Source: Polytrichum commune
Lineage: Eukaryota; Streptophyta; Polytrichopsida; Polytrichales; Polytrichaceae
Length of the DNA stretch: 64,000 nucleotides
Assembly: GCA_950295325.1 (NCBI GenBank)
Contig: OX485805.1
Location: forward strand, 44,664,758 to 44,728,757
Direction: 5' to 3'
The notes beneath the pieces were generated by a model. The model saw nothing but the letters and a program-made list of their open reading frames with translations. It ran no database searches and had not been told where the DNA came from. The position numbers and the translations under genes are program-made. The first letter of the stretch is position 1, and each line of letters begins with the position of its first letter. This document shows positions 1,265-64,000 of the stretch, piece by piece.

Positions 1265-3808
1265 CCCATGCCTTAAAGTAAGGGGTGTATCTTGATGAAG
1301 GTTTGCCAAAGCGCCACGAACACGTGTCCAATATTGTATCCAACTTCCGTAACGAAGCCAACACGATCCACCAATATCCGCTACCCTCAAACTCTCCCAA
1401 TATTGTATGAAGCCTAATATGCCTTTACAAATGTCCTCCAAATTCTTCATTAGTATTGGTTTGCAAGGCTTAGGCTCTCCGTCAGGCAACATCGTCCTTC
1501 CTTCCCCATCAACACGCCATACAAGGAGACCCTCCGGCGGGCTCCAGTCTTGTGATGTGCACAACAACTTGTATTGCATGGCGGGGACACCATCGTCACG
1601 CACGTAGAACCGAAATTGTTGTGCCTTCGTATGCCCGATCAATCGGTGAGCTCCGCTTCGAATATACGGTTCTATAAATGCCTTGAAGTCTGGAACCTCC
1701 TCAATCATATGTGGGATGACGGGAATGTTCTCCAAATCCATGTACGACTTCATCAACAATGGGATTGTTGGAAAATCCTCCTCGCGCAACTTCATGCTCC
1801 ACCGCCCAAAGGACGCATCAATATCATCGTGCATGTGGCCTACCAATAGAAAGGACACAAAAACCTCCTTGAAAATGCCTTTCGCAACCAACAACGACCA
1901 ATATGCAAAAACATATCTACTTTTATTGTCCTTCGCACAATTGTCCAATTGGACACGCAGAGTTGGGGGCAAATTCTTGGCAATCACATCTTCACTTGGT
2001 GGCTCCGGCAATGAGTGCACGCATACATCTCTTCCATCCAAGACCGCTTCATATAGAGGTGTTGATCCCGAGTTTTCAAATAGCAATCTTGATGAATAGG
2101 ACGGCGGTTTCTCCAAATCACGTAAAAGCTTTGCAAATGACCCTATCGTGTGGTTTGAATCCCCCGGATACAAATCAAGAGCATAATGAGCATACTTGAC
2201 ATCTCCATGCCCATGTGCAATCATTCCTGCAAAGGCAACCCAATGGTTTAATATTCAACTATAACACCAAAAAATTCACATGGTGTACATGTATGGCCCC
2301 AAGTACAAACCTAAACGCACAAATTTGTGTTTAGGTAATGCAATGCAATTGTTATCAAAATCACCTGTAACCGAAACAAGAAGCTTAAAAAGGCCGTCCG
2401 TGGCTTTTATTCGATTTGCAAAACATGGTGAGGCTGTTTTGGCATGGTCCATTTTGTCATGGATGATTGTAAGGACTTCCAAAGGCCTGGAGATGGACAA
2501 AGCTCTATTTGTGTAGTAATCATTACGGTGTGCCTCTTGCATGTTCACATGCTTGAAATAGTTCATTTGATGTGCGGCATAGGACTCTGTCCCCATCGTG
2601 TGTGCATCTCGAAGGCGTTTCAACTTCTCGCATTTGGAACAACGGGCAAATTTGTCGCCTCGTCTTTTTGTGATGTATTCGCTAAAGTGAGATTTTTTGA
2701 TAGCACTCAGTTTCGACAACGAAATAGGGTCCAACCCGGCCTTCTCGCCAACTGCGTTTACGTCCAACAATATGTCTTTCCATTTCGTGCCTGTAGGAAG
2801 AACCTTCTCCACAACCTTTTCACCGGTTGCGAGTGTCCGTGTTTTGTGCGGCATTGCATCGGCAAGGGGGACAATGATGGTTGCCAGAGTGGCTGTTGCT
2901 TGTCTCGTTGCTTCTCTTGGTTTCTTTAAGCCCGTGTTCCCATGGTGACGGGCACGGCAGCCTTCATTGGCATACGCGGCTTGTCTATAAAATTCCGCTT
3001 TCGACACACCGTGAATGATGTACCATGCCGTACAACACACGTCTATGCTCTCAAGGGTGATGACCTTGCGACCCGCTCCGTTCACATGTATCGCCCTATG
3101 GACATCAAGCTTTTTGGTAGATCTTAGACGGAAATCTCCAAGCCACATTTCCTCGCGGATGGCCTTCAATTTATCCCTTGGGAACAATTGGCAACAACGA
3201 TGTACACAACAATCCTTTGTGGCAACTTCTCTAATGGACTCCTCACAAAGCAACCTTTGACGTTTACACTCATTTGCAGACGGAGTAGGACGTGCCAATG
3301 TATCGTACTTCCGTAGGCCTTTGCGTGGCCGAATGTTTGCTTGGAGCTCCTGTTGGATTTGGACGTGTCGTCGCTCGTGCTCATGCAAATTAACCCCATC
3401 AATTGTCACATTCCTCAACGGCCACCTTCGCAACGAGAACCTATGAGTTGGATTGACTTCCGAATGTACAAGTGATTCTAATATAACAACTCCAACGTCC
3501 TCGGTGCCAAGGGAGTGTTCATCAATGCAATCTTGTGGATGTGTGTTACGACAAATACCCTCCACCACAGCAACTCCACTGTCATTAACAAGTACCACAT
3601 CCAAATTCACCCATGAAGCTCGTGAAAGCCCCGCACATTCCACAATGGGGCAAAAAGGGTCAGATGGCGAAGGACTCCCCAAATGACCTTCATCTGCACT
3701 GTCATCAAAACTATCCTCCCCGACAATGTCTAGCTCATCCCCAGACAGAGATTGGGTGCTGCCCATGTCTTCAGAGAAGGAATCCCCTCTTCCACCAACT
3801 CCCTCCAT
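1265..3808 (-). CDS. DUF7869-like protein, gene 2 of copy 1, 3' end cut by an LTR
   Basis: Two exons are predicted: 3808-2365, ending CACAG|GTGATT, and 2226-1265, after a TTTGCAG acceptor. They join in phase 1. The ATG at 3808 follows directly on a TGTGTAG acceptor, as in the copy-2 homologue, so an upstream untranslated exon is likely. The acidic N-terminus is followed by a conserved block around DCIDEHSLGTEDVGV, a Cys cluster (DCCVHRCCQLFP), an AMPHKTRTL..GEKV block and a CSKC zinc-finger-like segment. Exon 2 holds HGHGDVKYAHY, QLDNC.KDN and VGHMHDDIDASFGRWS. Spaced acidic and His residues of this kind suggest an RNase H-fold transposase or integrase core; that is inference. The family match to DUF7869 is from memory. 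The reading frame is intact to the LTR junction at 1264/1265, where roughly 190 C-terminal residues seen in copy 2 are missing. Confidence 0.72.
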
Positions 3809-3999
3809 TGCGCCTACACAAATGCACATGAAACCTCAACAAACATGGACACAACGTAAGGGTCCAAAAAAATCAAATATTGGAAAATGCAAAACATCAC
3901 GATAAATGGGGACACTGAGGATCAAGACATTTGCAACACAAATGCAATGTGAGCTCCCAATACTATGCGCCAGTCCACAAAATGTTCCACAAAATATTT

Positions 4000-5205
4000 T
4001 GGGTGGGAGTTTGGGTCGGCCGACCTAAACCCTGTGGCACCAGGGATTGAGGGCCATCCACACCTTGCCCGTGGGATAGGGTCGGGTTCCGGTCGACCGA
4101 CTCAAACCTTGTACAATGATGGGTTGAGGGCCATTTAGAATTCCATCACGCTGTGGGGAAAATTTTGGGTCGACCGACCCAATCCTTGTCATGGTCAACT
4201 ACAACGTCCGAAACTGGGGAAGGGGTTGGGTCGACCGACCCAATCTTTGACGGGGTTAATCCACCCACACTGGATAGGGGTTTGGGTCGGTCGACCCAAA
4301 CTTTCACAGGCTAAATCCATCCACACTGGAAAGGGGTTTGGGTCGACCGACCCAAACTTTCACAGGGTAAACCCACCACACTCGGAAGGGGTTTGGGTCG
4401 GTCGACCCAAACTTTCACAGGGTAAGTCCACCCACACTGGGAAAGGGTTTGGGTCGGTCGACCCAAACTTTCACAGGGTAAGTCCACCCACACTGGGAAA
4501 GGGTTTGGGTCGGTCGACCCAAACTTTCACAGTGTAAATCCACCCACATTGGGATGAGGTTTGGGTCGCTCGACCCAAACATTACATATGATGGGATAAG
4601 GTTCTTACTCTGTCCGTCCAAACCTTCTGAGTACCTTGGGTAAGGGCCATTAACAATTCGTTCACGATGTGCGAAAAAGTTTGGGTCGACCGACCCAAAC
4701 CTTCTGAAAGGTTTTACGATAAACGCCCATAGTGGGGTAGGGGTTTGGGTCGACCGACCCAAATCTCAGAAGGGTCAGACTAGACCCCCCCCCCAACACT
4801 AGTGAAGGGGTTTGGGTCGACCGACCCAAACCTCACAAGGGTCAGACTAGACCCCCCCCCAAACACTAGTGAAGGGGTTTGGGTCGACCGACCCAAACCT
4901 CACAAGGGTCAGACTAGACCCCCCCCCAACACCAGTGAAGGGGTTTGGGTCGATCGACCCAAACCTCACAAGGGTCAGGCTAGACCCCCCCCCCAACACT
5001 AGTGAAGGGGTTTGGGTCGACCGACCCAAACCTCACAAGGGTGAGACTAGAACCCGCCCACACTAGTGGAGGGGTTTGGGTCGATCGACCCAAACCTCAG
5101 AATGGTCAGACTAGAACCCGCCCACACTAGTGGAGGGGTTTGGGTCGACCGACCCAAACCTCACAAGGGTCAGACTGAAACCCGCCAACACTAGTGTCGA
5201 CCGAC
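4000..5205. repeat. Palindrome array type 1 (arm GTTTGGGTCG) upstream of gene 2 copy 1
   Basis: About 19 palindromes occur here. The arm GTTTGGGTCG is followed by two free bases (AC, GT, AT or GC) and the reverse-complement arm. They sit in two tandem sub-arrays. At 4220-4580 the unit is ~58 bp with 'acagggtaa.tccacccacactggga.aggg' linkers. At 4740-5180 it is ~62-68 bp with 'aagggtcagactagaccccccc' linkers. Outer copies (4010-4200) are degenerate while inner copies are near-perfect, as if the array grows from the middle. The linkers change between sub-arrays but the palindrome does not. Confidence 0.95.
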
Positions 5206-8823: not shown

Positions 8824-9495
8824 GTATTTTCTTTTATTATATGCAATAAGTGTTTGTCAATTGAAGGTATTGTAGCATACACAACGCATAAGCATTGTAT
8901 ATGCTACGTGCCAACTTTTAAAAATTACATTAAAATAGGAAAGTTTGGGGAGACGACCCAAACACGGCCACAGGTTTGGGTCGGTCGACCCAAACACAGC
9001 CTCTTGTTTGGGTCGACCGACCCAAACACAGTCTCTTGTTTGGGTCGACCGACCCAAACACAAAACAAAGCATCATGTTTGGGTCGACCGACCCAAACAC
9101 AAAACAAAACATCATGTTTGGGCCGAACGACCCAAACATAGCCTCTTGTTTGGGTCGGCCGACCCAAACACAAAACAAAGCATCATGTTTGGGCCGAACG
9201 ACCCAAACAACGTCTTCTAATTATAAACTCATAAAGAAATCCATGATTTTTGCATCAATATAAAATTCACATCCACTAAAAAATAATAATCAAGGAATGT
9301 ATCAAGGAAAAGTATCAAGTAATCCTGCATGTCACAAACAATATAAAATGCAAATCCACCCAATAATCAAAACATTCTTATTATCAATACAAATGATGCT
9401 GAAATATATAAATATACAATCCACCTAAACCTATTCATGTCGTAGATGTTTGGGTCGAACGACCGAAACTAACATTGCACATTATTTTCTTACAG
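8824..9495 (+). other. Predicted 5'-UTR intron of gene 1 copy 1, carrying type-1 palindromes
   Basis: The donor is AAAG|GTATTTTC at 8824. The acceptor TTTTCTTACAG sits immediately before the ATG at 9496. Copy 2 also has its ATG directly after an acceptor. About nine type-1 palindromes lie at 8944-9210 and at 9449. Two of them (about 9117 and 9189) carry a matching variant of the inner arm bases (GGGCCGAACGACCC). Confidence 0.75.
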
Positions 9496-12400
9496 ATGGC
9501 TCCAAAGAAAAGACCCGGCGAAAGGTGGTTCATGCCTGCGCCGGACATGTTGTGGCAGGAGCACGAAACCCCGCAGGATGACTCCTATTCCCCTAAGGAC
9601 GGGCTTGTCCTCGCGTGGTCTATACAAGTGGTTAAGGGTTCGCAATACAAAATGATTTTTGTTGTGAAGGTTGGGACCGTGGAGAAGCACACATGGGCTA
9701 CTCTTACGGGGTGGGAGGTGGCATCGGTTCAGTCTCTTGGAGACTACGTGGATGTCATCCTCGAGAACAACGCTGTCCAGAACGCGCATATGTTTATGCA
9801 CCAGTTCTCCGAACCCTTTGACGCTATCTATGCAAAAGAAACATGTGTAGAACCAGACGTCATCAAACCGGAGTCCATATTCATCGATAACAGTACATCG
9901 AACACAAAGGTGTCGAGCAGATTCACGAAACTAAAGCATGCAATCAGCGTGCTCAACAAAGCCCTGCAGAGCAAAACCAAGTCTCAGCAACCCGTGAGGC
10001 GGAAAGCAACCACAGAGGAAGGAGCAGGGTCGTCAAGACCTCAATCGGTGAGGATGCCGCTACCAGTACCGGCTGACTCGCGTAGGACCACTCCCTCCCA
10101 AACACCTACGAATAGTGAGACCCCTACACCTTCTGGGAGCCGTCAAACAACTCCATCCAAGAGGGCGAGAGAGTCATCTGTGATGACTGACGAGCCAGTC
10201 TCACCGGAGTTGCGCATGCCGAAGCCCGGCGAAGAGGTGGATGCAGGGGAGCTGCAGAAAATCGTGAACAATTTCACGACGAAATGCTCCCACTGTTTTT
10301 TCATGGGCAGGGATTTTAAGTTCGACGTGAACATCAGCCAGTGCCATCTAGCGCCACCGGAGAAGTGTGTCCGGGCAAAGGAGGACGCCTACGTTGACTG
10401 GATAATCGCGCAGATCGTTTGCGAGCAGTTTAAAGACGACAGGCAAACGATAGTAGTGATGCCACAGGGTCTCAAGAAAATGCCTACACCAGAAATGTGG
10501 CCCACAATTCAGAAGGGCGATTTTTGGCTCATAGACGGCCAACACAGCGTGGAGGCATCCAAGAAAATCCAACTCATGAATGAGTGGGATGATCCGAACA
10601 ATCAGAAGGAAAAGCTGAAGGTTTGGAAGGCACTGGTGGTGTGGTCTGACGACGAGACCAAGCTCAGCGACATCTCCCGGTACTTCAATATGGGAAATAA
10701 GAAGAGGGCCTACCAAGCTTCCTGGATAAGGAATATCATGGCCTCGCGGGAGGTGTGGGAGTTCTATGGTAGGCCTCCCAAGGAGAGGGAGAATGCGAAG
10801 GACAAGAATCCCAAATGGGAGGTGAGTATTGTTTAGGTCGACCGACCCAAACTCCTGATGCAGCCTTGTTTATTTAGTTTGGGTCGACCGACCCAAACTC
10901 CTGATGCAGCTAGTTTATTTAGTTTGGGTCGATCGACCCAAACTGTTGTTGCAGATGTTGGTCATGATATGGGTTGGAAATCACATGCACTTAACTAACA
11001 CGCATTCAAATGTTTTGTTTTGTGGACGTGCAGGATTTCAAATACCAAATGATCAACAAATTTTCCTCCATTGATAATTCGAGCCACAAGCAGAAGAAAT
11101 ACAGCGACCTCAAGGGGGAGATTTACTTGATTACAACATCTGACTCAGTTTGGAGGAAGTGGAAAACCGTGTTTGAAAAGCACGAGACGGGGGATTTGAT
11201 CGACCCCGACACTGGCATTTTCTTCAGCCAAACCTCGCGCTTCAAGCAGATGAAGCCTCTCGTGAGAGAGTTCTTTAGAACTCTTCAAGGGCTGTCAGAG
11301 ACGGAGGTGGAGAAGGCGGCATCTCACATCCTGCACGTGGCACCCACGGCGAAGAGGTGTTGGGTGCACCCGAAGATTGTCTTCCAAAAGCCCAAATCCT
11401 TCGTTCCTTCATGCTACACCATGAAGGAATGGACGGATAACAGGAAAAAGAAGACGACTATCGTGCAGGAGCTGCATAAACTAGTGCCAGAGAGGAATAT
11501 TGTCGTGGACGGCGAGGTCCATGAGGCTAACTGGAGAGCATTCAAAGCTGAATATAAGTTCACCAGTGCCTCCATGGTGGCTCTAATAAGGGAAGCGGGG
11601 GACGACTTCTTGCGGGCCAAGATGGTGAAGGGTGGGAAGAACCGGGCGCTTCCGGATCACACAGCGCGTGCGTTCTCGAACTTCATCAAGGAGAAGAAGA
11701 TTGTCCAGTTTGAAGGGGAAGCGTACTTCAACCTTGTCACCGCCGACCCGTTGAAAATTCAGGGCTGGCCAGGTCAAGACGCCAGAATGGCGATAAGGAC
11801 GAAAGCAAGGGACCGCTTTCCTTTTGGGATGATTGATTTCAGGAATATTCCTGGAAGCTCATTTGAGGGCACGATGAGCACCCTCTTCTATGACCCCTTC
11901 CTATCTAAGTTCGTCGATTATGCAAGCCCTAAGTTCAGGGAGGTAGATATCTGGCTTTGGATAGTCGAGGATAGGAGGGCGGAGCAGGTGTACGAGCTTG
12001 TCCGGAAACTGCAGCCGGAGTATGCAGTCTCCAAGTCTCACTACATCGCCGCACCGGCGGAGGGAGCTTACACGACGTTGAGGGACAAGAAGACCAAGTT
12101 CGTCAACGTCTTGTGTTTGTACTTCGTGTACAAAGCGGAGTTGCTGAAGGTGCCGAACCACCCTATATCCCGGATGGACAAACTCTTCCAAGTTCCAGAA
12201 GGGTTGGGTGTCAACAAGTGCCTCTACGACGAGGCTAAATACGCGAACTATCCTTTAGATGAGCTGCGGATGGAATTTTACGTGAGAATGATGAGGACGC
12301 TGACGAGGAGAGGGGATTGCATCTTCAACGTCTTCGGAGGCTCTAAACCTATCTATGCTGCCATGGTAAGCGACTTTCTATAACTCGTGCGCAGTTTGGG

Positions 12401-17591: not shown

Positions 17592-17719
17592 CTGTGATGA
17601 ACAACTCGACTAGTTTAATTCTATGATCCAATAATGAAATTTTGCGTAGAAAATGAAGACGCTGCATTATGGGAAAAGAGGAGGAAGTAAGGAGGGTGCA
17701 AGGCAAATGTGCACAAGGG

Positions 17720-50255: not shown

Positions 50256-51350
50256 CACTTCAAATATCCACTTTCAGATAACCGCGTTCACACTAACAGA
50301 AAAACTGGGATTTATGTAATGGACACTCACCAGGGTTCTTTGGGGGGACCATGTCAAAATTCTTTCAATACGAATGTGGTTTCCTGCACAAAACAAAACA
50401 CAAGAGCTATTGTTTCAAACTATGCCTACATGTGCAATACATTCATACTCTCAAACATCTCAATAGGTAAATTCTTCCCTCACATTCTTCTTGCAATCTG
50501 GTCTCACATTTTTATGAACATAACCTCTTGTCATTCATCTTGCATTCTGATTTGAGCATTTTTCTCACATTTCAATCAACTCTTCACACCCAAACATCAC
50601 ACAACTCACATGCAAATCTCTAGTATTTCTGGGTTTGAAATTCTTCAAGCAATTCAAACCCTAGTGCACCAGAAATTTGAAATGCAAGCAAGAGGAAGAA
50701 TGCAAGCAAGAGGAGGAATGCATGCAAGAGGAAGAATGCATGCAAGAGGAAGAATGAAATTGAAAGAGAAAGCAAAAGAGTGAAAGAGAGTGCAAAACAT
50801 TGAAAGAGTTCAGAAACTTACAAGCTTGTGGGTTCTCAATTCTTCATGATTGGAACTTCCCTCCACTTGCTTCAAGGTCGCCTTCCTCTTCTCCACATCT
50901 CACCTCTACCACATGCTGGATTGAGCAAGAAACAACTATGTTCACCAAGAAACTATCACATATTCCAAGAAAATGCACACTGAATCTATTCCAGGGTTTT
51001 CTTGAGAAGAGAATCAAGACAAGGAGTACAATAATTGAATGAAGAGAAGAGAATGAAGAGAATGAAGAGAAGCAAAGCAAGTTCAGAATTGTGGGAGAAG
51101 AGTTTTGCAAGAGCATTCCAGAAAAGTGGAGAGTGGTGAAGGAAAGAGAGAAAGAATTGGGAGAGGAGAATGAGAGAGAGGGAGAGAGAGGGAGAGAGAG
51201 GGTGCGAAATGTTGCCATAATGACGAGCGGGTGGAAGTCGCATGTCACATAATGCCTCATTAGTACGAAGGGACATGATGGAGGAAATCTCGGGACGCGA
51301 AGAGATATGCGATTTGGCGGCTAAAGTACGTTTTGAGGAGGGATGGGCGG
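50256..51350 (-). promoter_or_regulatory. Probable promoter and leader region of gene 1 copy 3
   Basis: No coding frame is supported. At 50690-50757 an 18-bp unit ('caagaggaagaatgcatg') is repeated four times, recalling the leader repeat of copy 1. Purine-rich GAGA tracts lie at 51170-51200. The transcription start cannot be fixed from sequence alone. Confidence 0.4.
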
Positions 51351-51359
51351 TATGATGGT

Positions 51360-51850
51360 ATTAGGACGTAGCGATAAAAAATTATTGGTACTTTGTAAGG
51401 TTCGCCCTATTGGTATGATAATTATTAGTACTTAGTAAGATATCTAAGTATTAGTGAGATAATTATTAGTACTTAGTAAGATATCTAAGTATTAGTAAGA
51501 CAATTATTAGTAATTAGTAAGATAACTGCGTATTAGTAAGATAATTATCAGTACTTAGTAGGATAACTCATATTAGTAAGTTCATTATTAGTACTTATTA
51601 AGATAACTCATATTAGTATGATTGATATTATTTTTATTGTTAGTAAATTGTCATATTCACTCTATTGTTAATATTAGTAATATTAGTAAAAATGATTTAT
51701 AGTGATTAATAGTAATTACCAGTAATAGTAACTAATAGTAACTAATAGTGACTAGTAGTGAATAATAGTGAATGCTAGTGCTTCATAGGTCATTATAGTC
51801 ATTAATAATGTTTAATAGTGATTAATAATTATGAATTACTAATGGCTGAC
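51360..51850. repeat. AT-rich tandem repeat ('attagtacttagtaagata')
   Basis: Units of about 40-45 bp made of 'aattattagtacttagtaagatatctaagtattagt' are repeated with decay. They grade into shorter 'gtgattaatagtaa' units to ~51850. No genes are present. Confidence 0.85.
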
Positions 51851-54800
51851 TAGTAGTGATTTATAGTAATAATAATAATCACTTTCAATCGATAAATGGT
51901 AATAGTATTGATAATGCTTAAAATAGGTTCATATTATAACATAGATTCCATACTTTAACATTCTACTCTGTAACATAGATTCCTATTATAACATACCAAA
52001 GTCAATTGCACATTCTCATAATATGCGTGTAAGATGCTCAATCGCGCTTGACATCAAGCATAGCTATGATTTCCAATTCCTTATTGATGAAGTCGTGAGC
52101 ATCCATAATAGGCCCACTTTCACCTTAGCCCATGAACTCAAGTTCGATTGTTCTCTTGTTTTCTCTTGGACTATGAACCATTAGAGTTCCAAGAATTCAA
52201 AATTTTAAATATAACATATATTATGGCAACGAAAATAATGGCATGACATAAGAAGCGGCCATGGATACTTATAAAGCATCAAAGTTGCTGGCCATTAGAA
52301 ATCATCACACATAATACTTGCCGCGCATAATGGGTACATGCCCACCTCCCATACCCAATAAACCCTACTGGATAGGTAAATACTACTAGGAATGAACATA
52401 AATCGTTTAACATAAAAAAAAAAATTAGGCAATTTTAGCATAAATCTCTTTGTGGCTTTGCCCTCACCCCCATGCATTGAGAATCACTTCATAACTTGGT
52501 TTTAAAGTCATTCTCCTAGCGTTTATTCTTGTAATTGTATCTTAAGTTATATTATTACTAGATTCATTATGTGCTCTTCATTGGCTAAGATTTTTGACGT
52601 TCATAGTCGACATCTAATATGAACACACATGCTTGCGATAACACAAATTCAAGAATGACCTTCTCAAAGGCACTAGAGTTATCATTTATCCCACTCAAAT
52701 TTTTGGGTGGGGGTTGGTTGTTTTGCATGCAACACATATGGACTTAGCCAAAATTAGCGGTCAACTAAAGAGAAAGGACTTTGGAAACTAACATATTGAA
52801 GTACAAGGTGATATGCAAGGCCGCGGGAGACATCGGAATCGAAATCATATTGAGAGGATGACAAAGGAGGTGGCCAACGAGTGGGCCACATCAAGCACCA
52901 CATGAATCTCGAGCAATATTAAGATTGCATCTCCATAACCATACCTCATCGATTAAAGGGAATTCTAAATGATGGCATAAGATTTACGGAAATGAGAACT
53001 TGAATAGGAAATGGGTCAAACACTTCAATGAATGAATTCATGTAAATCATGTGTACTCTATGAATTGAATGGTTTGTGGAATCTCGTAAAGATACTTTAG
53101 CGAGGAGTAGGTTAGGAATACATAAAGTCTTGAGACTCTTTCAAATTGAAATATTGAAATATAATTGAATAGAGGAAGAATAATACGTAGGTCATTCAAT
53201 CCATGAAAGAGATAAAAATAACTCCATAAGTTATTAGAGATGAGAATGATTTACATGCATGAACACTTAGCTTTGACATTAATGTCTTAGGGACTCGGGG
53301 GGGGGGGGGGCACTGGCGAAAAATGTAGGAACTACGTGCGATAAAATATAGGGTCTTGTATAAAATTTGGCGTAAAATTTGTAAAATTATTAGATGTAGT
53401 ATAGGGTGCTTTGGGATTGTGAAACATGATTATATGTAATATAGCATTTGACAAAACATGATTAAATTACCTAAGTGGTACATATAAAATAGCATGGACA
53501 AAAAGCGATAGTTTCAAAAATTAAATACTTTGCCACCAAAATATGGCATGTTCTATATAGGAAGGGTTCAAAAGATAAGGGTGAAGGTTGGTACTAAGTG
53601 GGGCAATTGTTGGCAACCCATTGACTTGATGAAACGTGCAGTCCAGAACGGAAATAGAGAGACGCTCTTCCCAACTACTATGGCTTACCTCCATTGGTTA
53701 AAAAAACAGCTGGGTCTCAACAAATATAAGTATGTTGAGAGTGATTGTGTGTGGGTTGATGTGGATGCTATTCTCTCAACAGTGTCTCTAGTAACAATGA
53801 ATCAACTAGCAAAATCTACACCTTAGATGAGGTAGATGCAAACTCATTGAATGAGTTCATTTCAAATAAAAAATAAAACCTGTTAAATTTGTACTATCTC
53901 ACACATGTGGAGATATAATTTGGAGAAAGGGTTGAATGATCATTAGTATACCTTGAAATCTGTAGTAGCCATTTCAGTTCGATTACCCTCATATCTCCCA
54001 CATGTGTAAATGGTAGCCTAGCTAGTTTAGGTGGATTTTGCTTGCATGGCGTGGGATTTTCTACCAATGTGTAGGATTGGAAGATCAAGGCATCAATTGT
54101 AGGGCTTCTGCAAACCTTGTAAATGTGACTTTGAGACACATGTGGCTGGCCTGTTCCCTAAGACCTCAAGGTTTCTAACTGTGTTATCCAACACAACTTT
54201 CATTCGTTGGCTCGTGTTGCTTAATGACATGTAATTGCAATCTTTTGTTGTTATTGTTTAGTGTTTTGCTTTGCCCGGACTTCAGTGTGACCCTGAACCC
54301 TAAACCCTAGTAAATGTTTGTTTCTCTTACTTTGTACACGTGCTTCTAACGAGAATTCTACTGTATCATACACTTTAAGGAATGGGGGCAATCAGGGGGG
54401 AAAAATTGCATATAAGTAATATAGGGTACCATAAAATCAACCATCCAAGAATTTATAATTACCAATAGGGTGCAAATAATCACAACAATTTACCATTATT
54501 TCAAAAATTAGCATCCCTTATAATCCTTTCTCATAGGTAAATAGCCCCCATTTTAATAGATCATTATCGCAGGTGTATGCAAAATATACAAGGGAATGCC
54601 CCCCCCCCCCCCGAGCTTAGGGAACATCAACTTGAATTCTAAAGGCACTGACTCACTTAAGAATTATTGGACAAGGATATCATATTGAGATTGGAAATTA
54701 GTAAACATATGATCACAGATCCTCAACATAGTTCACATGCCAACCCATACCCCATTGTATGCCAGACTATCTCTTCATATGTGAACGCTACATGAGGTAT

Positions 54801-55250
54801 AACTTAGAGCCATGTCATGATGATGGATGAGTTCATCCATTGACCTTCTCATGTTAGCAACTTGTGATGCAACATTGTCATGGATGATTGCTATATTGTC
54901 TACTGTGATATAGTGATAACGTACATGTTCATATTAAACGGTTTTGTTAATTCCCACTACATTCCCAAGGGTAAGATGCTTAAGCTCACTATTGGCAAGT
55001 GTCATGTGTTTCATTTTAATATTTAAGAGGAATACATCCTTAAGCATACTAATGGCATGTCATGTCAAGATTTTAATAAGTGCACTCAAACACCCAGTGT
55101 CATGTGACGACACTTACGGTGTTGTTGTTAATCTGCAATATAACATAGCATACCCTTCAAAATAGGGGTTTCCATTACTGTGGGTTTTTCATCTGTATAT
55201 TTGGATGAAAATCCAATGTAAGGCAACGAAAGTACAATAATATTACAGTG
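51850..55250. other. AT-rich region without a recognised gene
   Basis: Scattered short frames only. Poly-G and poly-C tracts lie at about 53298-53311 and 54599-54612, and a short CCCTAAA tract at about 54293-54309. A 98-codon frame at 53530-53826 is described separately. Confidence 0.5.
53530..53826 (+). CDS. Unrecognised 98-codon open frame, possibly a gene fragment
   Basis: The frame starts at ATG 53545 or an earlier near-start and contains a run with protein-like composition (VKVGTKWGNCWQPIDLM, then YVESDCVWVDVDAI). No family is recognised. The surrounding DNA is AT-rich and non-coding, and no splice partner was found. It may be an exon remnant or chance. Confidence 0.2.
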   Translation: MPPKYGMFYIGRVQKIRVKVGTKWGNCWQPIDLMKRAVQNGNRETLFPTTMAYLHWLKKQLGLNKYKYVESDCVWVDVDAILSTVSLVTMNQLAKSTP

Positions 55251-55254
55251 GGCC

Positions 55255-55450
55255 ACACTAAAAATGAACAACAGGACTTAGAATAATATAAGGTTTCAAA
55301 AATGGCAATGGACATCTTTAAAGTACTATAGGGTATGGAAGAATATGTAATTTGGAATTATATGAAATGCAAGGCTTTTTCTATTAACCCAAGGTTGAAA
55401 ATGCTAATGAAATAAATAACCCTAAACCCTAAACCCTAAACCCTAAACCC
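55255..55450. repeat. Dispersed repeat R (forward copy 1) ending in CCCTAAA repeats
   Basis: The block contains 'catctttaaagtactatagggtatgg', 'taatttggaattat' and 'atgcaaggc', and ends in four CCCTAAA units. It recurs in the same orientation at 59170-59362 and inverted at about 55590-55745 and 61190-61350. Confidence 0.85.
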
Positions 55451-55589
55451 ATTAGTGTGGTAGTCCACTTAGTGTTGGACCTTACTAGTTGCTCGCCATC
55501 TATTTGTGTCCTACTCATATGCAATTAGGAGTCTAGCAACAACTAATTCTCTTTTATCGCGCATCCATGTGCAAACAACCACTATTTTA

Positions 55590-55745
55590 TATGGGGTTAT
55601 TACTTTCAATTTTTTTCTTCACATGCTATGATTATGTAGTTTTCTTAGTCGGGTTAGTAGAAAAGGGCCTTGCATTAATTACAAATCCAAATAATCGATT
55701 TGTTCCATACCCTATAGTACTTTAATGATGCCCAGTGTCATTTTT
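55590..55745. repeat. Dispersed repeat R (inverted copy 1)
   Basis: Reverse-complement match to 55255-55400: 'gggttagtagaaaagggccttgcattaattacaaatcc' and 'ccataccctatagtactttaa'. With the forward copy it makes a large inverted repeat around a CCCTAAA tract and ~150 bp of unique DNA. Confidence 0.8.
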
Positions 55746-55749
55746 GACA

Positions 55750-58700
55750 CCCCATATTATATTTGCTTTAACATGGGCGGACGTTAAATACCCCCTCACG
55801 AACTTTTGGAGGTATCTAATCTGGGTTGGGGCAATCTTGTAGAGAAAATTTCTAAACCCGACCAAAAATTGCATTCTTGAAGGCCGCTTGACTACAAATC
55901 CCATATTGAGTGCACTAAAATCCGCTTGACTTACCATAAATAACTTATATTTGTCATTCTAATGATAGATTAGTGCAAGTGTTTATAAGAGAATAAGGTA
56001 TAAATAAATGATATGTTATTTGGAATTAGACTCGTGGGACAATGTTATAGATGGGGTATATATTACTGAGAAAATCATAAGTTTCTGACTATAGCCTATC
56101 TGAATTATTTAATAATTTATCCTCATCACATATTGTATTATCTTTCAAATCACATAGTGTATAACCGTTACTTTTAAATAAATATAATTATATGATACTA
56201 ATACTAATACTAATACTATTATGCAAATACTAATAATAACAATACTAATACTAATATTGAATTGAGTTTTTTAGTTCACCAATTTATCATAAGGTGATAT
56301 ATATTATTGTGCCATATTACAAATGTTTGAACAATCACACATGTGCAAAATAAATGAATTATGAACAAAAAGATGTCTATGACAACACTTCATAATTATA
56401 TATTGCACACATTGATATCTTACAATATTTATCAAAATAACCATGTGAAATTCAAAGCCACATCATGGCCTTGGAAACATCTCATGGGAGGTTGGAAAAT
56501 AGGCTTAGAGCATCCAAGGCCACATCATTGCCCCTTGCCAACAAATTAATATTTATAAAATAACTATGAGGGAGAAAGTAGGTCTTACATGCCAACTCGG
56601 AGGTATTTCACTAAAGTAAGCTCCATCCGAGCTTCTTGATGGACTCATCCGATTTTTGTTACCGGATGACTTTACTTGAGTGCCACGAATCCCCGGCCAT
56701 TTCAAGTGGGCTTGTACGGTTAAGGTATTTGTTGACTTTCATATTTACGGCCTCGAATGTCCTTCCCAAAGTGCACATCTAAGGGTACTCATGTAAGTAT
56801 AACCATGCTATCACATAGAGCCTTATTATAACCTAACATAGTCAATCGCACACTCTCAAAATATTTTCGGTCATTGTAGGGTCGATAGTGCACATGGATT
56901 GACAACCTAAGTACCAAAGTACTAAATTTGAGCAACAACAAATCCCACATGGATGCAACATCTATGGCTACACGGTCCAAAATTGAGCTTTTATATTCTC
57001 CTTAAAGGTGATTTCAAAAATACTTTATGGCAAGTCCACAAGTCATACCCATGGATTGGAGCATGACATTATGGAAAGGTTACTTAAAGGTTACTCAAAG
57101 GTATTTGACCCCGATTTTAAAGAGTAGTTTAATAATCTCTAAATAGAAATCTCTAGTCCTATTGTTACCAATGCTTTCGACTTCCCCTCCCTTGGTCTCC
57201 CTCCCCTTAGTAGATGTTGTATTGAATCATCCCATGATACCTACCTATGGTGCAACAATTAGAGTTTATTGCATTGAGTACTGACTGTTGTTTTGAGAGC
57301 TCACATGCTACATAACTAAATAAATTCATTTTTTATTTTAGCAATTAGTTAAAAAAGACAATTAGTTAACAAAGATAATAAATTCATTTTTTTATTTTTT
57401 TTCCCAAAGCGGGTCACGGGTGCTTATGAGTGGGGCTATGTGCGTACATGCACATGAAGGTTTTACAGGGGCATGGGCATATGGTTTGCAAGGGTTAATG
57501 TATGTGGTTGGGTTCATGCAAGATATGAACCCAAAATGATTCATACGGACTGGTGTAATGGGTCAGGATGGCACATGCCCAAACTAATAAGGTATGTGGG
57601 GCTCATTGATAGTTGTAGTTTGAGGAGGGAAACTTGACTAGGTTGGTATTCTAGCACATGGAAATTGATTTTCATTTGAGCGGAGAAACCTTGGTTTTTA
57701 TATACATTGTTAGTGTGAACCATAATTTGTTGTATTTACATTGAGAGTTCATGATGCCATGTTCTTACTATTCAAACCTTGCCCAAAGTTTTCTTAATTT
57801 ATGGAGATTTTGTTTTTCATTTTTCTAGCATCCCATGATTAAAAATCAATCAGTCTAGTCAATCAACAACTAAAGTGCGTCAGTACAAGGATGGCCACGT
57901 TTCAACTTGTGTTTTGGGCAACGAGCCGAATCTGCTACCCCCCCCCCCCCAACCACCATTGCCACTCCACATGGGAGTGCTCAGTCCAAAAGATGCTTGA
58001 AGATACCGGCAAAACCTTCACCAACGTCAGAGAACTCTATTTTGTTTCACCAAAACGATTGGTACATGAAAGTGTGCCCTAACTTGGGCTAGACTAATTT
58101 GGGGTCAATTCAACTAAATAGGGTTTCCAATAAACTTTGAAAAATAACCTCCTTACTACATACTAGTTTAAAGTTTCATTGTTGGATGAATGAGAGTAAT
58201 ATGCTCGTATGCGATAATCCCATTTCGTTGGCCAAAAAAACATTGATATGTATATAGGGCCTCACATTAGAAGCCCAAGCCCTTGAGGATGTAAATGCTA
58301 TCACAAATTCCCCATGCGTAGGCAAAGCCTATCAATCCGAGGGCAAAGACAAGAAAACATGCTCACATACAAGCACACCCAACATTCATCCAAAAACATT
58401 TTATTTAAAAATTCAATTGGTTTGACACCGTAATTAGCTTCAAAGTTACGGAATTAGTCTAAACCAAGGGGGTTTAGTTTTATATTTTCTGTCGGATCGA
58501 TGAGAGGTACTCTTGAATGTGAGGTTTTTCTCCACATATGGAAGAGCACATCCTGAAAAGGGGAAGAAATTTTTATTAGGAAAAATTGAGTATGTTTGCT
58601 CTATAATGTACATGAGTTTGGGGGTGGTGGGGGGGGGGGGGGCTCATTATAGGGCTTATTGCCTTCCTTTTGGAAGCCGGGCTATGTTGGGTGCAACTAT

Positions 58701-59165
58701 CTATTTGGGGCATCCAAGTTTGGGAAGAGGGGGTTGACATTGCAACCATTGTATCTCATTGCATCTATTAAGGGGTTGTATGTGTTTGTTTTGTATTGTT
58801 GTTTCAATGTATGTGTTGTGGCATAAGGTTTAGGTTAAGGAGTATATGTCCTCTAGCTGCATTGGGAGTTCCAATCACACACGTGGTGTCCAAACTAAGT
58901 CTACCCAAACATGTGCATTATCCAAGGACATGTCAAATGATTGGAGTCGCGTTTTTCTACAGCCTTGTCGATCGGTCAGCCTTAACCATCATTTCGACAT
59001 GGGATCTCAAAACGGTCATCCAAAGGGCATAAGTGGTGGGCCCATAAGTATATAGCGTAAAACCTAGGAAGTGCAGCTAGAAATGTAGTGGACACATACC
59101 GGGGGGGGGGGGTTGTGATGTATTGGAGTAGAAATATACGTGCGAAAAATTGAGAGGGTATATGG
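55750..59165. other. AT-rich region without a recognised gene
   Basis: No feature is supported beyond poly-C and poly-G tracts at about 57938-57950, 58629-58642 and 59099-59111, and a short ATACTA microsatellite at 56196-56255. Confidence 0.5.
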
Positions 59166-59169
59166 GGAC

Positions 59170-59362
59170 GTAAAATGAACAAAATGATTTAGAATAATAT
59201 AGGGTGTCAAAAATGGCGTTGGACATCTTTAAAGTACTATAGGGTTTGAAATAATAGGTAACTTGGAAATATAAGTAATGCAAGGCCCTATCCTACTAAC
59301 CCAGAGCTGAAAATGCTAAGGAAATAAATAACCTTAAACCCTAAACCCTAAACCCTAAACCG
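59170..59362. repeat. Dispersed repeat R (forward copy 2) ending in CCCTAAA repeats
   Basis: Same order of blocks as 55255-55450: 'agaatgatttagaataatataggg'-like, 'catctttaaagtactatagggttt', 'aatgctaaggaaataaataacc', then CCCTAAA units. Confidence 0.85.
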
Positions 59363-59454
59363 GTTTATAAATGGATCAACATCTCTAGCGTAGTGCTATA
59401 AATTTGATGATTTCCCCAGTGTAAATAGGGCATTGACGCCCGAGTTGGCCACAT

Positions 59455-59515
59455 ATATATATATATGTATATATATATACATACATACATACATATAGAC
59501 ACACACACACATATT
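59455..59515. repeat. TA/CATA/CA microsatellite
   Basis: A run of 'atatatat', then 'catacataca', then 'acacacac'. Confidence 0.95.
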
Positions 59516-59944
59516 TGTGGCAAAGGAACTCTATGGTATGTTGCTACATGTCCAACATCATGATTGATAAGAATGACAAGTGATGCTAAAAGTTGAAAAA
59601 TGGGTTGTGCAAATCAAAGAGGTGCCATGAAAATGGACTCTCTCTCCCTCTCTCTCTCTCTTTGGTGGCATTTTGCATGTTTCAGTCAATACATGCAAAT
59701 TCATTTTGTAACATGTGGCGCTTTCAAGTCAAAGATGGATTAACCCTAGGCTTGAGCTATTGGGAGAAGGGTCGAATTGTCAAATTGTGTATAATGCCAT
59801 AGTAGGAGTCTAGGTAGGTATTGAGTCATCACATCCTATATCATACTATTAATGGGGGTGGGCGAGGCAAGGTTGTGGCAAGTTGACAAGGCTGGGCATG
59901 GTCACAAATCATTGGTGCTAAATTTGAGGTCACATGAGAAAGTT

Positions 59945-60165
59945 ATTAAATGGGCATCTTGGATAACTTAACTTGATAAAACCACCACAAGCCATTGTGA
60001 ACCGTTGATGATGAGGTTGAGGTTGTTTGGGAAGAGTGTTCAACAATCATCTTGGATAACTTAACTTGAAAAAACTGCCGTGAACCATCGGGGTTTAGGT
60101 TGAGTTTGAGGTTAAGGTTGAGATTGTTTGGGAAAGGTGGTCCACTTAACTTCATAATTATAAAT
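59945..60165. repeat. Tandem duplication, ~100-bp unit
   Basis: Two units begin 'catcttggataacttaacttga' (59952 and 60049) and end in 'gattgtttgggaa', with a partial third near 60200 ('catcttcgataacttaa'). Confidence 0.8.
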
Positions 60166-61189
60166 TCAAGGTTTTATGTTTTGATGTAATAATTCTCAAT
60201 GGTCATCTTCGATAACTTAAGTACATGATTGTGACCTTAGGGTTTTGATGTTTAATGTTTCAAAGTTGTGAACAAAACCAAGAGGTTTATAAAGGAAAGT
60301 GACACATACTCCTTTGGTAAGATGAATCCACAAAAGTGCAAACTCAAATTCATGATTTAACAAAGCAATTTAGCGATAGGTTCTTCCAATTTCATTGGAA
60401 ATATGAACCAAGTTCATTATTTAAACAACCAATTTCAGTACATGTTGTGAACAATTTCATGATTTGGTACCCATATTCAAAACTTCACAAAATCAATTTT
60501 AGGAAATGCATAACTCTATTTCACAAAGAACATTACATCATGTATAGGATTATCCTAGTAAACAAATTGCTCCCTATTCCGCACAACTATACACTACACT
60601 CCAAAAACGTTATGCGCTTTGCTCACGCTACCAACACTCTTCCTATAATCAAACCCCCAACTACACTACGTACACTCTCAAACCCATGAGATTACGCACT
60701 CCAACTATGTTGGGTATGAGTTGTTTGCTTTGATGTACAATAATCAAAGACCAAAGGAAAAATGACATTGCTTGCTTCTAACTTCAAGGTAGTGTAATGA
60801 AGACCAAAGAAAATTTGACATCAAGGCTAGAGGCTTCCAAGTAAATACAAAACAATGAGAAGGCAAAGAATGCGAAATGAGGCGGCGAGAATTTGAGAAA
60901 TAAAAAAACCATAAAGTGTGAACTTGATATGGAAGATTCACAAAGTTGATAAAGATAAATGTCCACTATCATGAAATTGAGGTGTGCCACATGTCAAGTC
61001 GGTTAAGAAGAATGATCATGGGGATACAACAAAACATTTGCTCATGAAATACAACATTGGACAATGGGGTGGAGCGAGGCAAGTTGACAAGGCTAGGAAA
61101 GTATAAGTATCTTGGGGGGGGGGGGCAGTGTGTTAAAAAGTTAAGGATATAGGTGCGAACAACCATTATTTTATAGGGGGGGTGTTACT

Positions 61190-61390
61190 TTCAATTCTCT
61201 TATTTTTCTCACAATGATGCTATCATTATGTAAATTTCTACTTTGGGTTAATAGAAAAATGGCTTGCATTACTTATAATTCCAAATTACCTATTATTCCA
61301 TACCCTATAGGACTTTAAAGCTGTCGAGCATACTGGTTGATACCCTATATTACTCTTAACTCCATTTATAATTTTTAGCCCCCATGTTTT
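61190..61390. repeat. Dispersed repeat R (inverted copy 2)
   Basis: Reverse-complement match to the R block: 'ccataccctataggactttaaag', 'cattacttataattccaaatta' and 'gggttaatagaaaaatgg'. It parallels 55590-55745 and forms a second inverted pair with 59170-59362. Confidence 0.8.
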
Positions 61391-62170
61391 TAAAATACCC
61401 TATCATTTGTTCGCACGTATATTGCTACTCCAACCAATGACTACCCCCCCTCGAGAGAAGTATATGAAACTATTCCGAAGTTGCAACACAATGGGCCACA
61501 ATGCTAGTTGCTCTAAAAGGAGCAGGCTAGTGTTGAGCTTCAAACCTTGAATTTGGGTGCAATCATATTCCCAAATTAGACTGCAATCATGAAAGATAAT
61601 AGTAGCTTTGACCGGGTTATCCTTGCACCTTGCCCACAAAATAGGCATCCTATTCACAATTATAAAATATAAAGGAACTATAACTCTGGTGAGAGAATCC
61701 CATGTCGTTGTTAACTCTTGCGGATGAAACAATACCTAACCTTCATACTATTCATTTTGCAAGGGTGCCCATCATAAGTGGTGGACCTGTTATGTGTGCA
61801 CATGTCCTTATGTAATTTTGGCATGAGTATGCTTGGTAGTGGTATGAGGTGTATGCAAAGGTTATCCAATGATCATTGGTACCGCAAAGACTCTCCTTCG
61901 CCTTGTAACAAATTTTCACTCCATGTACATACGATGTAGAACCCCACTACCGAAGGTCATCATTATTCAATATGAGGAAGGTTAGAACGTGATTAGCTAA
62001 TAGCGATAGGAATTGGAGGGAATGACGTCTATGTACTTACGAATTTGGAGGGAATGCCTTGTACTTCCTCATGAGAAGTTGATGGCCATGCTCACGACCT
62101 ATATAAAGGCCACCATTTGGAGGGTCATTTCTTTCTCCTCATTTGAGTCCACCCCCCTTCACCCTTGAGG
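61391..62170. other. Non-coding stretch before gene 2 of copy 3
   Basis: No recognisable gene. It probably includes the promoter of gene 2 of copy 3, since the next ATG with an open frame is at 62178 and palindromes follow at once. Confidence 0.35.
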
Positions 62171-62239
62171 AGCAACCATGGAGAGCGTGCCTCACATGAG
62201 TGAAGAGGTTGGTTTTATAACCCCAATGTGCATCCACTT

Positions 62240-63008
62240 TCCCACGGGTGCACCCGTGACAACACTCTGGCCGTACCCCTCCTGTACGGCCAGTCTGCCA
62301 CGGGTGTTCACCCGTGGGAGACTCTGGTACCGGGTTTGGGGCCCCCACGGGTGTTCACCCGTGGGAGCTTATGGTTTTTATTTCGGTTATCCTAGCATAT
62401 GTCAGAATAGAAGTTATCCATATGCTCATGTGTGTGACAAACTTCTAGTAGTAGATGTCAGCATGGTAGCCTCCCACGGGTGTTCACCCGTGGCAGTTCA
62501 TGATTTGTATTTTAGTTCTCCCTACATATGTGTGGTTATAAGATAGGCATGTATCATGTGTGTGACATACTCAATAGTTGTATATGCAATTATGCTTATT
62601 TGTAAATTTCCTGCTGAGTATGTGAAATATGTTGTCAATGGGTAATTGGTACATATTATTACGAGTTGGGAGTTTCGTGATGCATTATGATAAATGATGA
62701 CGATGATATTCGTTAAACTGGAATGTTGACACTATCCTGAATGGCAACTATTTCGCTAGCACTTGGGCCAGCAGATGTGACACCTACATGCATAGTAATA
62801 ATTGTACACAAGTAAGTGTTAGGGGTGATAGTTTTGGTGTTTGGGCTTTGTGGAAACTGGTAATAAGGGTCATTCTCCCAATGGGGATATGATAAGTAAC
62901 ACATACTTCACTTGAGTTGTGTGAAGTGAGGTGTAAAGCTCACCCCTATATGAATGTAAATATTCTGTTGAGATGTCAATGTTGTCCCCCACGGGTGAAC
63001 ACCCGTGA
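62240..63008. repeat. Type-3 palindromes upstream of gene 2 copy 3
   Basis: Sites lie at 62297-62318, 62344-62365, 62473-62494 and 62987-63008. A shortened site at about 62240 keeps both arms but overlaps their inner ends. The last site lies directly upstream of the gene 2 reading frame. Confidence 0.93.
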
Positions 63009-64000
63009 GCTTCTGGTCAATGTGTGTTGACATACTTTGATATCGATGTTCAGATTCCACATTACATTGGACTGTCGAGGACGGACTTGAAGGGGAAGGC
63101 CGTTGTGCTCTTTGATGATGAGGGCCATGCTTTGTGTGATGGATTGATTTGCAACACAAATCCGTTGGATTGTGTTGACAATAGCATCCTAGGGGCTGAG
63201 GATGTTGGAGTTATTATCTTGAACCCAACTGACAATGTTATTTCGCAAGATTGGGAGAATACGCTGCACCGATGGCCACTTTCACTCACCAAATTTGAAG
63301 GACATACATTAGCGGAAATATTGTTGGTCCATCATAATGCGACCCGCGAAGTTCAAAGTCATCGGCGCTTGCTTGGAAAACGCCAATACAACACTGTGAG
63401 GATGTGTGCACCTCGGCCACCTGGGAAGAAAATTTGGGGAGCCACTGAGGAGCATGCGCGGATGTTATCAGCGGTGGATTGTTGTTCCGAGCATTGTTGC
63501 CAGGTATTCCCAAGGCCTTTGTTGATGAGTATTCGGGAACACTACTTCGCATTGCCATTCAATGCTCGGAAGCTCATAGCCCTGTCGGTGTTCCAATCGA
63601 TCCAGAAACATGAGCACAACGGACGTGAAATGGTGCAGTTGGAAGGGAGAACAATATGCACTCGAGCATGGATGAACATCTATATGATATCAAGGGCACA
63701 ATATAATAGGAACAAGGCTGAAAGCTTGATGGGGGTTAGATCTCGAGATCATGGAAATACAGGAACTAGAAAACCACGGGCGAATACAGTGCAAACACGA
63801 GCCACCCTTGGAGTATTGGTTGAGGGTAGGGCGGACGCCATGCCCCATATGACTCGGACTCTTCCAACTGGTGAGAAGATAGGGACGGAGATGCTCCCTG
63901 TGGGAACAACGTGGTGCAACCTATTGCAGGAAGTGAACAACTTGGACGGAGACCTAGGGTACACGCCTATCTCCACGTCCACCTTCAGCCGCCTACATCG
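63009..64000 (+). CDS. DUF7869-like protein, gene 2 of copy 3, runs off the window
   Basis: The frame is open without a stop from 63009 to the window end, about 330 codons. A GATGTTCAG acceptor at 63053 is a plausible exon start, and the initiator would be in an upstream exon. Conserved blocks match gene 2 of the other copies in order: NPLDCVDNSILGAEDVGV, RWPLS, DCCSEHCCQVFPRP, RDHGNTGTRKPR, ADAMPHMTRTLPTGEK and PVGTTW. It is more divergent than copies 1 and 2 are from each other. The catalytic-looking core of exon 2 would lie beyond 64000. No damage is visible in the part seen, so this may be the best-preserved copy of the gene. Confidence 0.75.

Follow-up and report, generated by a model that had tools for sequence, protein, structure and literature searches.

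Nested DUF7869 transposons of the moss Polytrichum commune carry lineage-private palindromes and a second gene predicted to recognise them

Why should one short stretch of a moss chromosome hold three versions of the same gene pair, each with a palindrome of its own? This question is raised by a window of 64,000 nucleotides from Polytrichum commune (assembly GCA_950295325.1, contig OX485805.1, here C3:44664758-44728757), by which we mean the whole stretch of DNA analysed. It contains three units with a common plan, in which a gene 1 and a gene 2 diverge from an AT-rich centre. A sequence-only reading had described them as three copies, side by side, of a large mobile element. Using searches of the 407.8 Mb assembly (64 contigs, 7 large), in which all match lists except the pattern counts are lower bounds, we find that the units belong to a mobile element family and that its lineages carry private palindromes. 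The common plan stood: each unit has its two genes divergent, and the exon 2/3 and 3/4 boundaries match between the gene 1 copies; the side-by-side arrangement did not, as units 1 and 3 are nested within unit 2. The six genes are as follows.

1265..3808, minus strand: unit 1 gene 2, exons 2365-3808 and 1265-2226, frame open in both exons, cut at 1265
9496..15423, plus strand: unit 1 gene 1, exons 9496-10821, 11034-12365 and 12630 to about 14112, phosphatase exon about 14611-15423, the last two boundaries by eye
16868..22528, minus strand: unit 2 gene 1, an old copy whose exons 2-3 contain three in-frame stops and whose 3' end unit 1 has cut
38500..41663, plus strand: unit 2 gene 2 (DUF7869), start approximate, frame broken
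43412..49688, minus strand: unit 3 gene 1, with its phosphatase exon at about 43412-44195 and a single in-frame TGA near 48000
63030..64000, plus strand: start of unit 3 gene 2, approximate, running outside the window to a stop at about 66001

The units have many relatives in the genome. With exon 3 of unit 1 gene 1 as the query, 95 matches were scored from 1237 candidates, on seven contigs and at 92-100% identity, and for unit 1 gene 2 the 125 matches scored, out of 1567 candidates, are 97-100% identical. With exon 2 of unit 3 gene 1 there were at least 100 matches, from 97 scored of 802 candidates; 36 are full-length at 82-100% identity, more groups lie mostly at 60-75%, and 25 lie at 23-28%. 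A gene 2 match is found no more than 25 kb upstream of 66 of the 95 scored gene 1 matches (the window's own included), compared with 0.9 expected by random placement and only 3 downstream. In 65 of these 66 pairs the genes are divergent, at a median distance of 8.8 kb; both match lists give lower bounds, and 65 of the 125 gene 2 matches are used in the pairing. Co-occurrence in divergent pairs had been put forward as a check on mobility, and the genome passes it.

The copies also share sharp ends. Matches to a query laid over the unit 1/unit 2 junction stop at query positions 663-673 in 39 of 39 other scored copies (668-673 in 38), and therefore unit 1 ends at 16867; its left end falls beyond the window. 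Similarly, 36 of 39 other long matches to a query over the unit 2/unit 3 junction start at 374-382, the remaining three at 389, 389 and 421, and we therefore place the start of unit 3 at 41681. In the 4.5 kb to the right of the window, 28 unit 3-type copies end at query positions 396-408, corresponding to a right end of unit 3 at 66497. Twelve unit 2-related copies begin where the unit 3-type ones stop, and end at 786-790 (window position 66885), so unit 2 resumes 3' of unit 3, past 66497. The right end of unit 1 and the left end of unit 3 both lie within unit 2, and the locus is a nest in which an old unit 2 hosts unit 1, a Ty3-type retrotransposon and unit 3.

16851..16867, minus strand: right terminus of unit 1, reading AACACTATATTCGTTAA from outer to inner, located by genome search
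41677..41680, unstranded: GGGA, the 4-bp target duplication left of unit 3, with its partner at 66498-66501 outside the window
41681..64000 in the window, unstranded: unit 3, 24,817 bp in full, its right end (66497) outside the window

The inverted repeat of unit 3, ATGGGGATATTAACTAAAATGAG at 41681-41703, is a perfect 23 bp and identical to the right one, and in ten other unit 3-type elements paired ends lie 24.96-25.16 kb apart. The terminus of unit 1 occurs exactly 1183 times in the genome (594 forward and 589 reverse; reversed control, 0). Ten pairs with this 17-bp terminus inverted at both ends were chosen, all on contig 1, among the first 100 places listed; they span 16.5-18.1 kb, and six of the ten enclose a listed gene 1 or gene 2 match. 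Because unit 2 ends in the same 17 bp, these ten may be of unit 1 or unit 2 type. Both size classes accord with the 15-20 kb or more suggested from sequence. An inverted match between 16823-16861 and 41687-41725 was considered as the inverted repeat of unit 2 and rejected, since the genome search shows related termini of units 1 and 3.

Insertion has left its mark at every site that we read. The target duplication is exactly 4 bp at 21 of 21 sites: that of unit 3, those of the ten pairs bearing the unit 1/2 terminus and those of ten pairs of unit 3 type. Lastly, when the two flanks of unit 3 are joined into one query, 40 of 40 scored copies (of 472 candidates) cross the site unbroken at 93-98% identity. 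These empty-site copies are related to unit 2, and a unit 1-type gene 2 neighbours at least one of the weaker matches. The shared termini, target duplications and empty sites that the sequence-only reading had named as tests of a mobile element are all present, and the element family is mobile.

Two further placements of copies were seen on contig C3. Three unit 1-type copies at 10.60, 10.69 and 10.77 Mb are spaced about 83.8 kb apart with gene 2 matches at near-equal offset, and are probably a triplicated segment. A unit 3 copy at C3:44477719-44502537, about 229 kb from the window copy and 100% identical in exon 2, likewise adjoins unit 2-related sequence.

What moves these elements? As had been supposed, gene 2 is DUF7869-like (PF25273; E = 9.5e-41 in unit 1 and 3.3e-40 in unit 2), and in Pfam it matches DUF7869 and no Mutator family. 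Across 48 aligned proteins, near-invariant aspartates stand at 419/422, 544 and 584/586 of protein P0001. The gene 2 profile found nothing significant among solved structures. Between units 1 and 2, segments of gene 2 share 47-73% identity, the main ones 62-73%, and in three segments synonymous differences are saturated at 0.79-0.87 per site while non-synonymous ones amount to 0.15-0.24. Given this synonymous saturation and low non-synonymous change, the lineages split long ago and stayed functional. Gene 2 very probably encodes the transposase. The C-terminal part of gene 2 at 41136-41663, which is without a Pfam match, appears by eye in moss proteins too.

To place the family, we compared it with described superfamilies. 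Sola elements, as characterised in excerpts of PMC10741241, have inverted repeats, 4-bp target duplications and a DDD-type transposase, are mostly 2-9 kb with some over 15 kb, and have been recorded in Physcomitrella patens. The moss family resembles them in its 4-bp duplication at 21 of 21 sites and in having inverted repeats of at least 11 bp (23 bp in unit 3 and 17 bp in the unit 1/2 type), and differs in its element size of 16.5-25 kb, its second gene and its palindrome arrays. Because of the 4-bp duplication, the near-invariant aspartates at three places and the presence in mosses, gene 2 and the element probably belong to Sola, an assignment made from the description of the superfamily. 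The earlier reading, which knew of no described superfamily with this gene pair, had not considered Sola, to which the gene 2 half probably belongs; gene 1 is the novel half. Moss DUF7869 proteins from Physcomitrium patens and Ceratodon purpureus, which are named entries among the 120 listed, are 47-53% identical to gene 2. Among the protein database matches there is no gene 1 relative with an organism name, and therefore the gene pair may be younger or confined to relatives of the host. A search of the open-licence literature found no paper on DUF7869, and among the papers listed nothing relevant on palindromic repeats or an accessory protein in Sola or moss elements, nor on an FCP1 homology domain combined with a transposase.

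After an N-terminal part, the gene 1 protein has a region marked by an [ND]GQH[ST] motif and then another conserved region. An acidic and coiled-coil stretch follows, and behind it lies a phosphatase domain of the NIF/FCP1 type. This last domain exceeds the curated Pfam NIF cut-off (21.8 bits) in all three units, with 48.1, 57.7 and 43.1 bits (E = 1.4e-12, 1.5e-15 and 4.6e-11) for units 1, 2 and 3, in agreement with the FCP1-like domain first proposed. Acceptor sites seen by eye in all three units suggest that the phosphatase exon is spliced to the rest of gene 1. The ParB-like domain fared differently: beyond the [ND]GQH[ST] motif there was no match in Pfam, NCBIfam or PHROGs and nothing significant in the PDB, and at the level of sequence we reject the label. 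The likeness to ParB/parS lies in a GQH-motif protein and clustered palindromic sites; the differences are a lack of sequence support for a ParB fold, a eukaryotic transposon as the carrier and no evident partition function. By title and abstract, open-licence papers on ParB with plant or palindromic transposable elements held nothing relevant. A profile of gene 1 exon 2 also found nothing significant among solved structures, and a single-sequence search with the phosphatase open reading frame of unit 1 found no solved-structure relative at E up to 0.1. Gene 1 had no match in bacterial and archaeal genomes, so that bacterial relatives were set aside.

Between units 1 and 2, gene 1 has diverged further than gene 2. 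Its identity is 35% across 878 columns for units 1 and 2 and about 26% across 355 for units 1 and 3, and the protein starts with MAPKKRPGERW in unit 1 and MARSSRSAIEM in unit 2. The ratio of non-synonymous to synonymous change (Ka/Ks) is about 0.18, and 0.28 in the phosphatase part; together with the gene 2 substitution values this indicates long purifying selection and an old divergence. All three window copies of gene 1 are damaged, including a frame break in unit 1 near 12.8 kb, and in many genomic copies the exon searched is free of stops. Past the phosphatase exon, exon-like stretches rich in charged residues were seen by eye at 15541-16330 (unit 1) and 42370-42900 (unit 3).

We next consider the palindromes. 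The window holds 62 perfect 9-2-9 palindromes, compared with 0.25 per simulated window; 55 are unit-specific and fall into three kinds, one is a unit 2 variant and six are AT-rich repeats, so the copy-specific palindromes of the sequence-only reading are real and far beyond chance. The three patterns are p1, GTTTGGGTCG-NN-CGACCCAAAC, in unit 1; p2, ATTTACGAACG-NN-CGTTCGTAAAT, in unit 2; and p3, CCCACGGGTG-WW-CACCCGTGGG, in unit 3. At four mismatches or fewer there are 40 p1 sites (29 exact), only at 4010-16615, and forty simulated windows contained no p1, p2 or p3 site at two mismatches or fewer. The main groups of sites, all unstranded unless a strand is given, are these.

4010..5158: p1 array upstream of unit 1 gene 2, 18 sites at three mismatches or fewer
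8975..9468: p1 array upstream of the start codon of unit 1 gene 1, 8 sites with at most one mismatch
10832..12558: p1 in the introns of unit 1 gene 1, three at 10832-10942 and five at 12395-12558
13745..13833, plus strand: two exact p1 sites in unit 1 coding sequence, read as FGSTDPN and FGSPDPN
17724..27305 only: p2 sites, 28 with four mismatches or fewer, 13 of them exact
41921..63008: p3 sites, 17 of the window's 18 with four mismatches or fewer, 13 exact in all

The eighteenth p3 site is a match with three mismatches at 21271, outside unit 3. All three units carry palindromes upstream of each gene and within the introns that separate exons 2, 3 and 4 of gene 1; in units 1 and 3 they also precede the phosphatase exon (for instance p1 at 14137, in the presumed intron), and a few exons hold some. 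One of the two coding peptides of unit 1 recurs in the homologue P0126. In unit 3, p3 occupies both gene promoters, introns and one coding site (46065), and a gene 2 intron holds a palindrome at about 65150 in window numbering (by eye).

The same partition holds across the genome. The patterns count 9731 (p1), 2909 (p2) and 805 (p3) sites, and the reversed control is 0 for each. Among the first 100 listed p1 sites, 81 fall into three clusters, of which two lie between paired termini and the third beside a lone one, and 41 of 50 distinct listed p3 sites lie in three clusters that also hold unit 3-type matches. Sixty loci were fetched, including the window's own two copies (L010 and L039): all 30 of unit 3 type contain p3 without p1 or p2, and all 30 of unit 1 type contain p1 without p2 or p3. 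Database proteins that stem from other sequencing sources, read through introns, agree with this. Exact p1 peptides occur in 15 of the 22 proteins that match unit 1 best (P0143, one of the 22, matches distantly), exact p2 in the single unit 2-type protein, and exact p3 in 5 of 39 unit 3-type proteins, of which P0144 is nearly the window's own and many have reading frames that stop soon past the splice site. In these proteins no exact palindrome crosses between gene 1 types, and none of 120 gene 2 proteins contains one. The palindromes are therefore private to their lineages. Since units 1 and 2 have the same terminus and a similar gene 2 and yet different palindromes, it is gene 1 that the palindrome tracks, rather than the transposase or the element ends. 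A viral origin was considered and rejected, as p1, p2, p3, gene 1 and gene 2 are all without a match in IMG/VR.

If each gene 1 lineage has its own palindrome, distant gene 1 copies should have others in the corresponding intron. This prediction was recorded before five loci (L110-L114) were fetched from the 25 distant matches of unit 3 exon 2. Perfect new palindromes were present in the gene 1 introns of all five, in three kinds whose arms measure 12-34 bp: GGGAGGTTCCTCTCG-GC-CGAGAGGAACCTCCC is common to three loci, one has AAATTCCACTCG-AC-CGAGTGGAATTT, and one has CACCACTTTCACTCG-AT-CGAGTGAAAGTGGTG twice. By chance, arms of at least 7 bp around a 2-bp centre arose in 2-6 of 300 shuffles per locus. 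The differing sequences suggest that the three kinds represent three lineages, and the six palindromes now seen are in what look like six gene 1 lineages. All six are compatible with one plan, with G and C beside the 2-bp centre and arms of at least 10 bp. Across 328 p1 and 218 p3 sites, arm bases are 92-100% conserved and the 2-bp centre varies, though selection of these sites at three mismatches or fewer in the arms favours arm conservation; beyond the extended arms, conservation falls to 0.29-0.67 for p1 and 0.44-0.74 for p3.

A second feature sets the unit 3 lineage apart. Its gene 1 begins with a short separate exon:

49658..49688, minus strand: initial 31-bp coding exon of unit 3 gene 1 (MARTKQTARK), joined by splicing to VSGGVGRR

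Histone H3 begins with MARTKQTARKSTGGKAPR. The exon is kept in 29 of the 30 unit 3-type loci, together with the AG before the ATG, the donor and the acceptor; its peptide is exact in 19, MARTKQTTRK in 8, MARTKQIARK in 1 and MAKTKQTTRK in 1. P0150, a homologue from another source, starts with the same ten residues, and its reading runs via an intron into an exon that shares 80% identity with the unit 3 one. The sequence is compatible with capture from an H3 gene and with convergence alike. Histone-tail mimics of viruses and host factors likewise copy the N-terminal peptide of H3, which is bound by readers and methyltransferases; the unit 3 protein differs from known mimics in being transposon-encoded, with ten H3-identical residues from the first methionine. 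For histone mimics or ARTKQTARK, no transposon-borne H3-tail copy was found, by title or start of abstract, among the open-licence papers listed.

Based on these data, we propose with moderate confidence that the units are large DNA transposons with terminal inverted repeats, that gene 2 serves as their transposase, and that gene 1 encodes a lineage-specific palindrome-binding protein whose role is most likely anti-silencing. Gene 2 would cut and paste the element with a 4-bp staggered insertion. The gene 1 protein would bind, as a dimer, the palindrome private to its own lineage, and with palindromes at both promoters, within most gene 1 introns and within a few exons it would coat the control regions of its own element. 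Once bound, it may counteract host silencing and support transcription. Its domain resembling FCP1-type phosphatases of the RNA polymerase II tail could be the part that faces chromatin or polymerase in all three window lineages, and in the unit 3 lineage the H3-tail copy could bind or titrate H3 readers and modifiers. The parts of this proposal differ in strength. The data show the mobility, the element ends, the target duplications, the gene pair, the palindromes private to each lineage and the conservation of the H3-like start. That gene 1 binds the palindrome is, to us, likely; that the outcome is anti-silencing or activation and not repression is the reading we lean towards. We favour anti-silencing because of a layout like that of VANC, as far as excerpts describe it, the chromatin- and polymerase-facing parts, and the recent, abundant copies.

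The closest well-described system is VANDAL/VANC of Arabidopsis, in the Mutator superfamily. According to excerpts of PMC5735166 and PMC10398659, VANC recognises a short motif in introns, intergenic regions and terminal non-coding parts, often in tandem, and this motif differs between related families and changes along with the protein. The moss elements are similar in encoding a putative regulator of their own and in their lineage-specific arrays of non-coding motifs that change with it. In contrast, their transposase is a DUF7869 and not a Mutator protein, their target duplications are 4 bp and not the 7-12 bp given for Mutator in excerpts of PMC10741241, and the motif is a long palindrome with a 2-bp centre in place of the 9 bases described for VANC. 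The VANC regulator is also unrelated to gene 1, which has a phosphatase domain and, in unit 3, an H3-like start.

Several observations weigh against our proposal. Among the listed sites, 19 of 100 for p1 and 9 of 50 distinct ones for p3 lie outside clusters assigned to elements. At one substitution, one p3-like peptide turns up in the unit 2-type protein, and each palindrome has a match in 1 of 120 gene 2 proteins. There is no palindrome in the gene 2 introns of units 1 and 2, nor in the 103-bp intron that follows the H3-like exon in unit 3. The putative DNA-binding part of gene 1 has no family or structure match in Pfam, NCBIfam, PHROGs or PDB. FCP1 enzymes carry a catalytic DxDx motif, in place of which units 1, 2 and 3 have DLNG, DLNG and DVNG, and the phosphatase domain may thus be inactive. 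The H3-like start is found within the unit 3 lineage only and is missing from units 1 and 2; 8 of its 30 loci have the variant MARTKQTTRK and one (L026) lacks the exon. Finally, a repressor would give the same palindrome pattern.

This last point leads to the main rival, in which gene 1 is a self-repressor or copy-number control and the palindromes are its operators. The lineages would then resemble phage immunity groups, and new palindromes would spread by escaping repression from resident copies. Palindromic operators are typical of dimeric repressors, and dense arrays upstream of both genes and in introns, as well as several lineages with private palindromes in one genome, fit such a control. 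We nevertheless regard it as unlikely: the many recent near-identical copies argue against strong self-repression, sites are also found in exons and 3' parts, and an H3-tail copy and a phosphatase domain are easier to reconcile with an activator or anti-silencer. More doubtful still is the explanation that gene 1 is an accessory protein of transposition, pairing or marking the element ends through the palindromes in the manner of the subterminal-repeat binding proteins known from other plant transposons. Two-gene elements with accessory DNA-binding proteins exist, and degenerate sites lie about 0.1-0.3 kb from some ends (one by eye), but the clean sites sit at promoters and in introns, kilobases from the ends, and units 1 and 2 have the same terminus without sharing a palindrome. 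It is very improbable that the palindromes are RNA hairpins acting as splicing or small-RNA signals. Most gene 1 introns do contain them, one with 34 perfect base pairs per arm; however, some introns have none, the largest arrays lie upstream of start codons and partly in DNA that is likely non-transcribed, and near-exact arms around a variable 2-bp centre resemble a dimer site, a 2-nt loop being unfavourable. One last reading, in which the units would be host genes copied by local segmental duplication, as three copies in one window and the 83.8-kb repeats on contig 3 might suggest, is refuted by the dispersed copies, the sharp shared termini, the 4-bp duplications at 21 of 21 sites and the empty site in 40 of 40 copies.

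The remaining features of the window are mostly insertions into the nest.

27313..38089, minus strand: Ty3-type long terminal repeat (LTR) retrotransposon with identical LTRs, in unit 2 upstream of gene 2

Its LTRs (27313-29096 and 36306-38089; 1784 bp) enclose one long open frame, and a CATGT duplication flanks the element on both sides (by eye). A 1-kb piece of it gave 40 scored genome matches, its own copy included, at a printed identity of 100%, from which it follows that this retrotransposon was active very recently. Position 1265, at which the stretch described in the sequence-only reading begins, is not an element end; LTR-end similarity and the cut reading frame mark it as the edge of an LTR retroelement that interrupts unit 1 gene 2. 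The stretch 1157-1265 resembles the LTR ends at 29096 and 38090 with 74% similarity, and 1-1265 is the probable end of another LTR-type element inserted into this gene; a 141-bp minisatellite lies within it at 14-582. Unit 2 contains a direct repeat of 66% identity, 17821-18181 in the 3' part of gene 1 against 26967-27305 upstream of gene 2, which seems by eye to run on beyond the retrotransposon at 38090-38190. Telomere-like CCCTAAA runs, already noticed in the sequence-only reading, are present in all three central regions (6600-6637, 24747-24824, 55418-55450 and 59330-59361).

For the family, a transposase role for DUF7869, together with the 4-bp duplications, would assign a role to a domain that so far has none. 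What is new is gene 1 with its lineage palindromes. On the question of how a transposon sustains its own copies while sparing the host and giving rivals no help, VANDAL/VANC is the one well-studied example with sequence specificity, and the moss elements are a candidate second system, unrelated to VANC in protein and motif and with parallel lineages in a single genome. Protein and palindrome appear to have changed together repeatedly on a fixed geometry, a natural experiment in DNA recognition and a possible source of orthogonal DNA-binding regulators. Private palindromes make self-recognition by transposons testable, and the N-terminal copy of the H3 tail offers a direct hypothesis for how an element may act on host chromatin. 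On balance, though only slightly beyond an even call, we think that this is a superfamily in which each lineage has a private protein-palindrome code for telling self from non-self among many co-resident elements, and in which one lineage, by subverting readers or H3K4/H3K9 modifiers, would use a copy of the H3 tail on the chromatin of its host.

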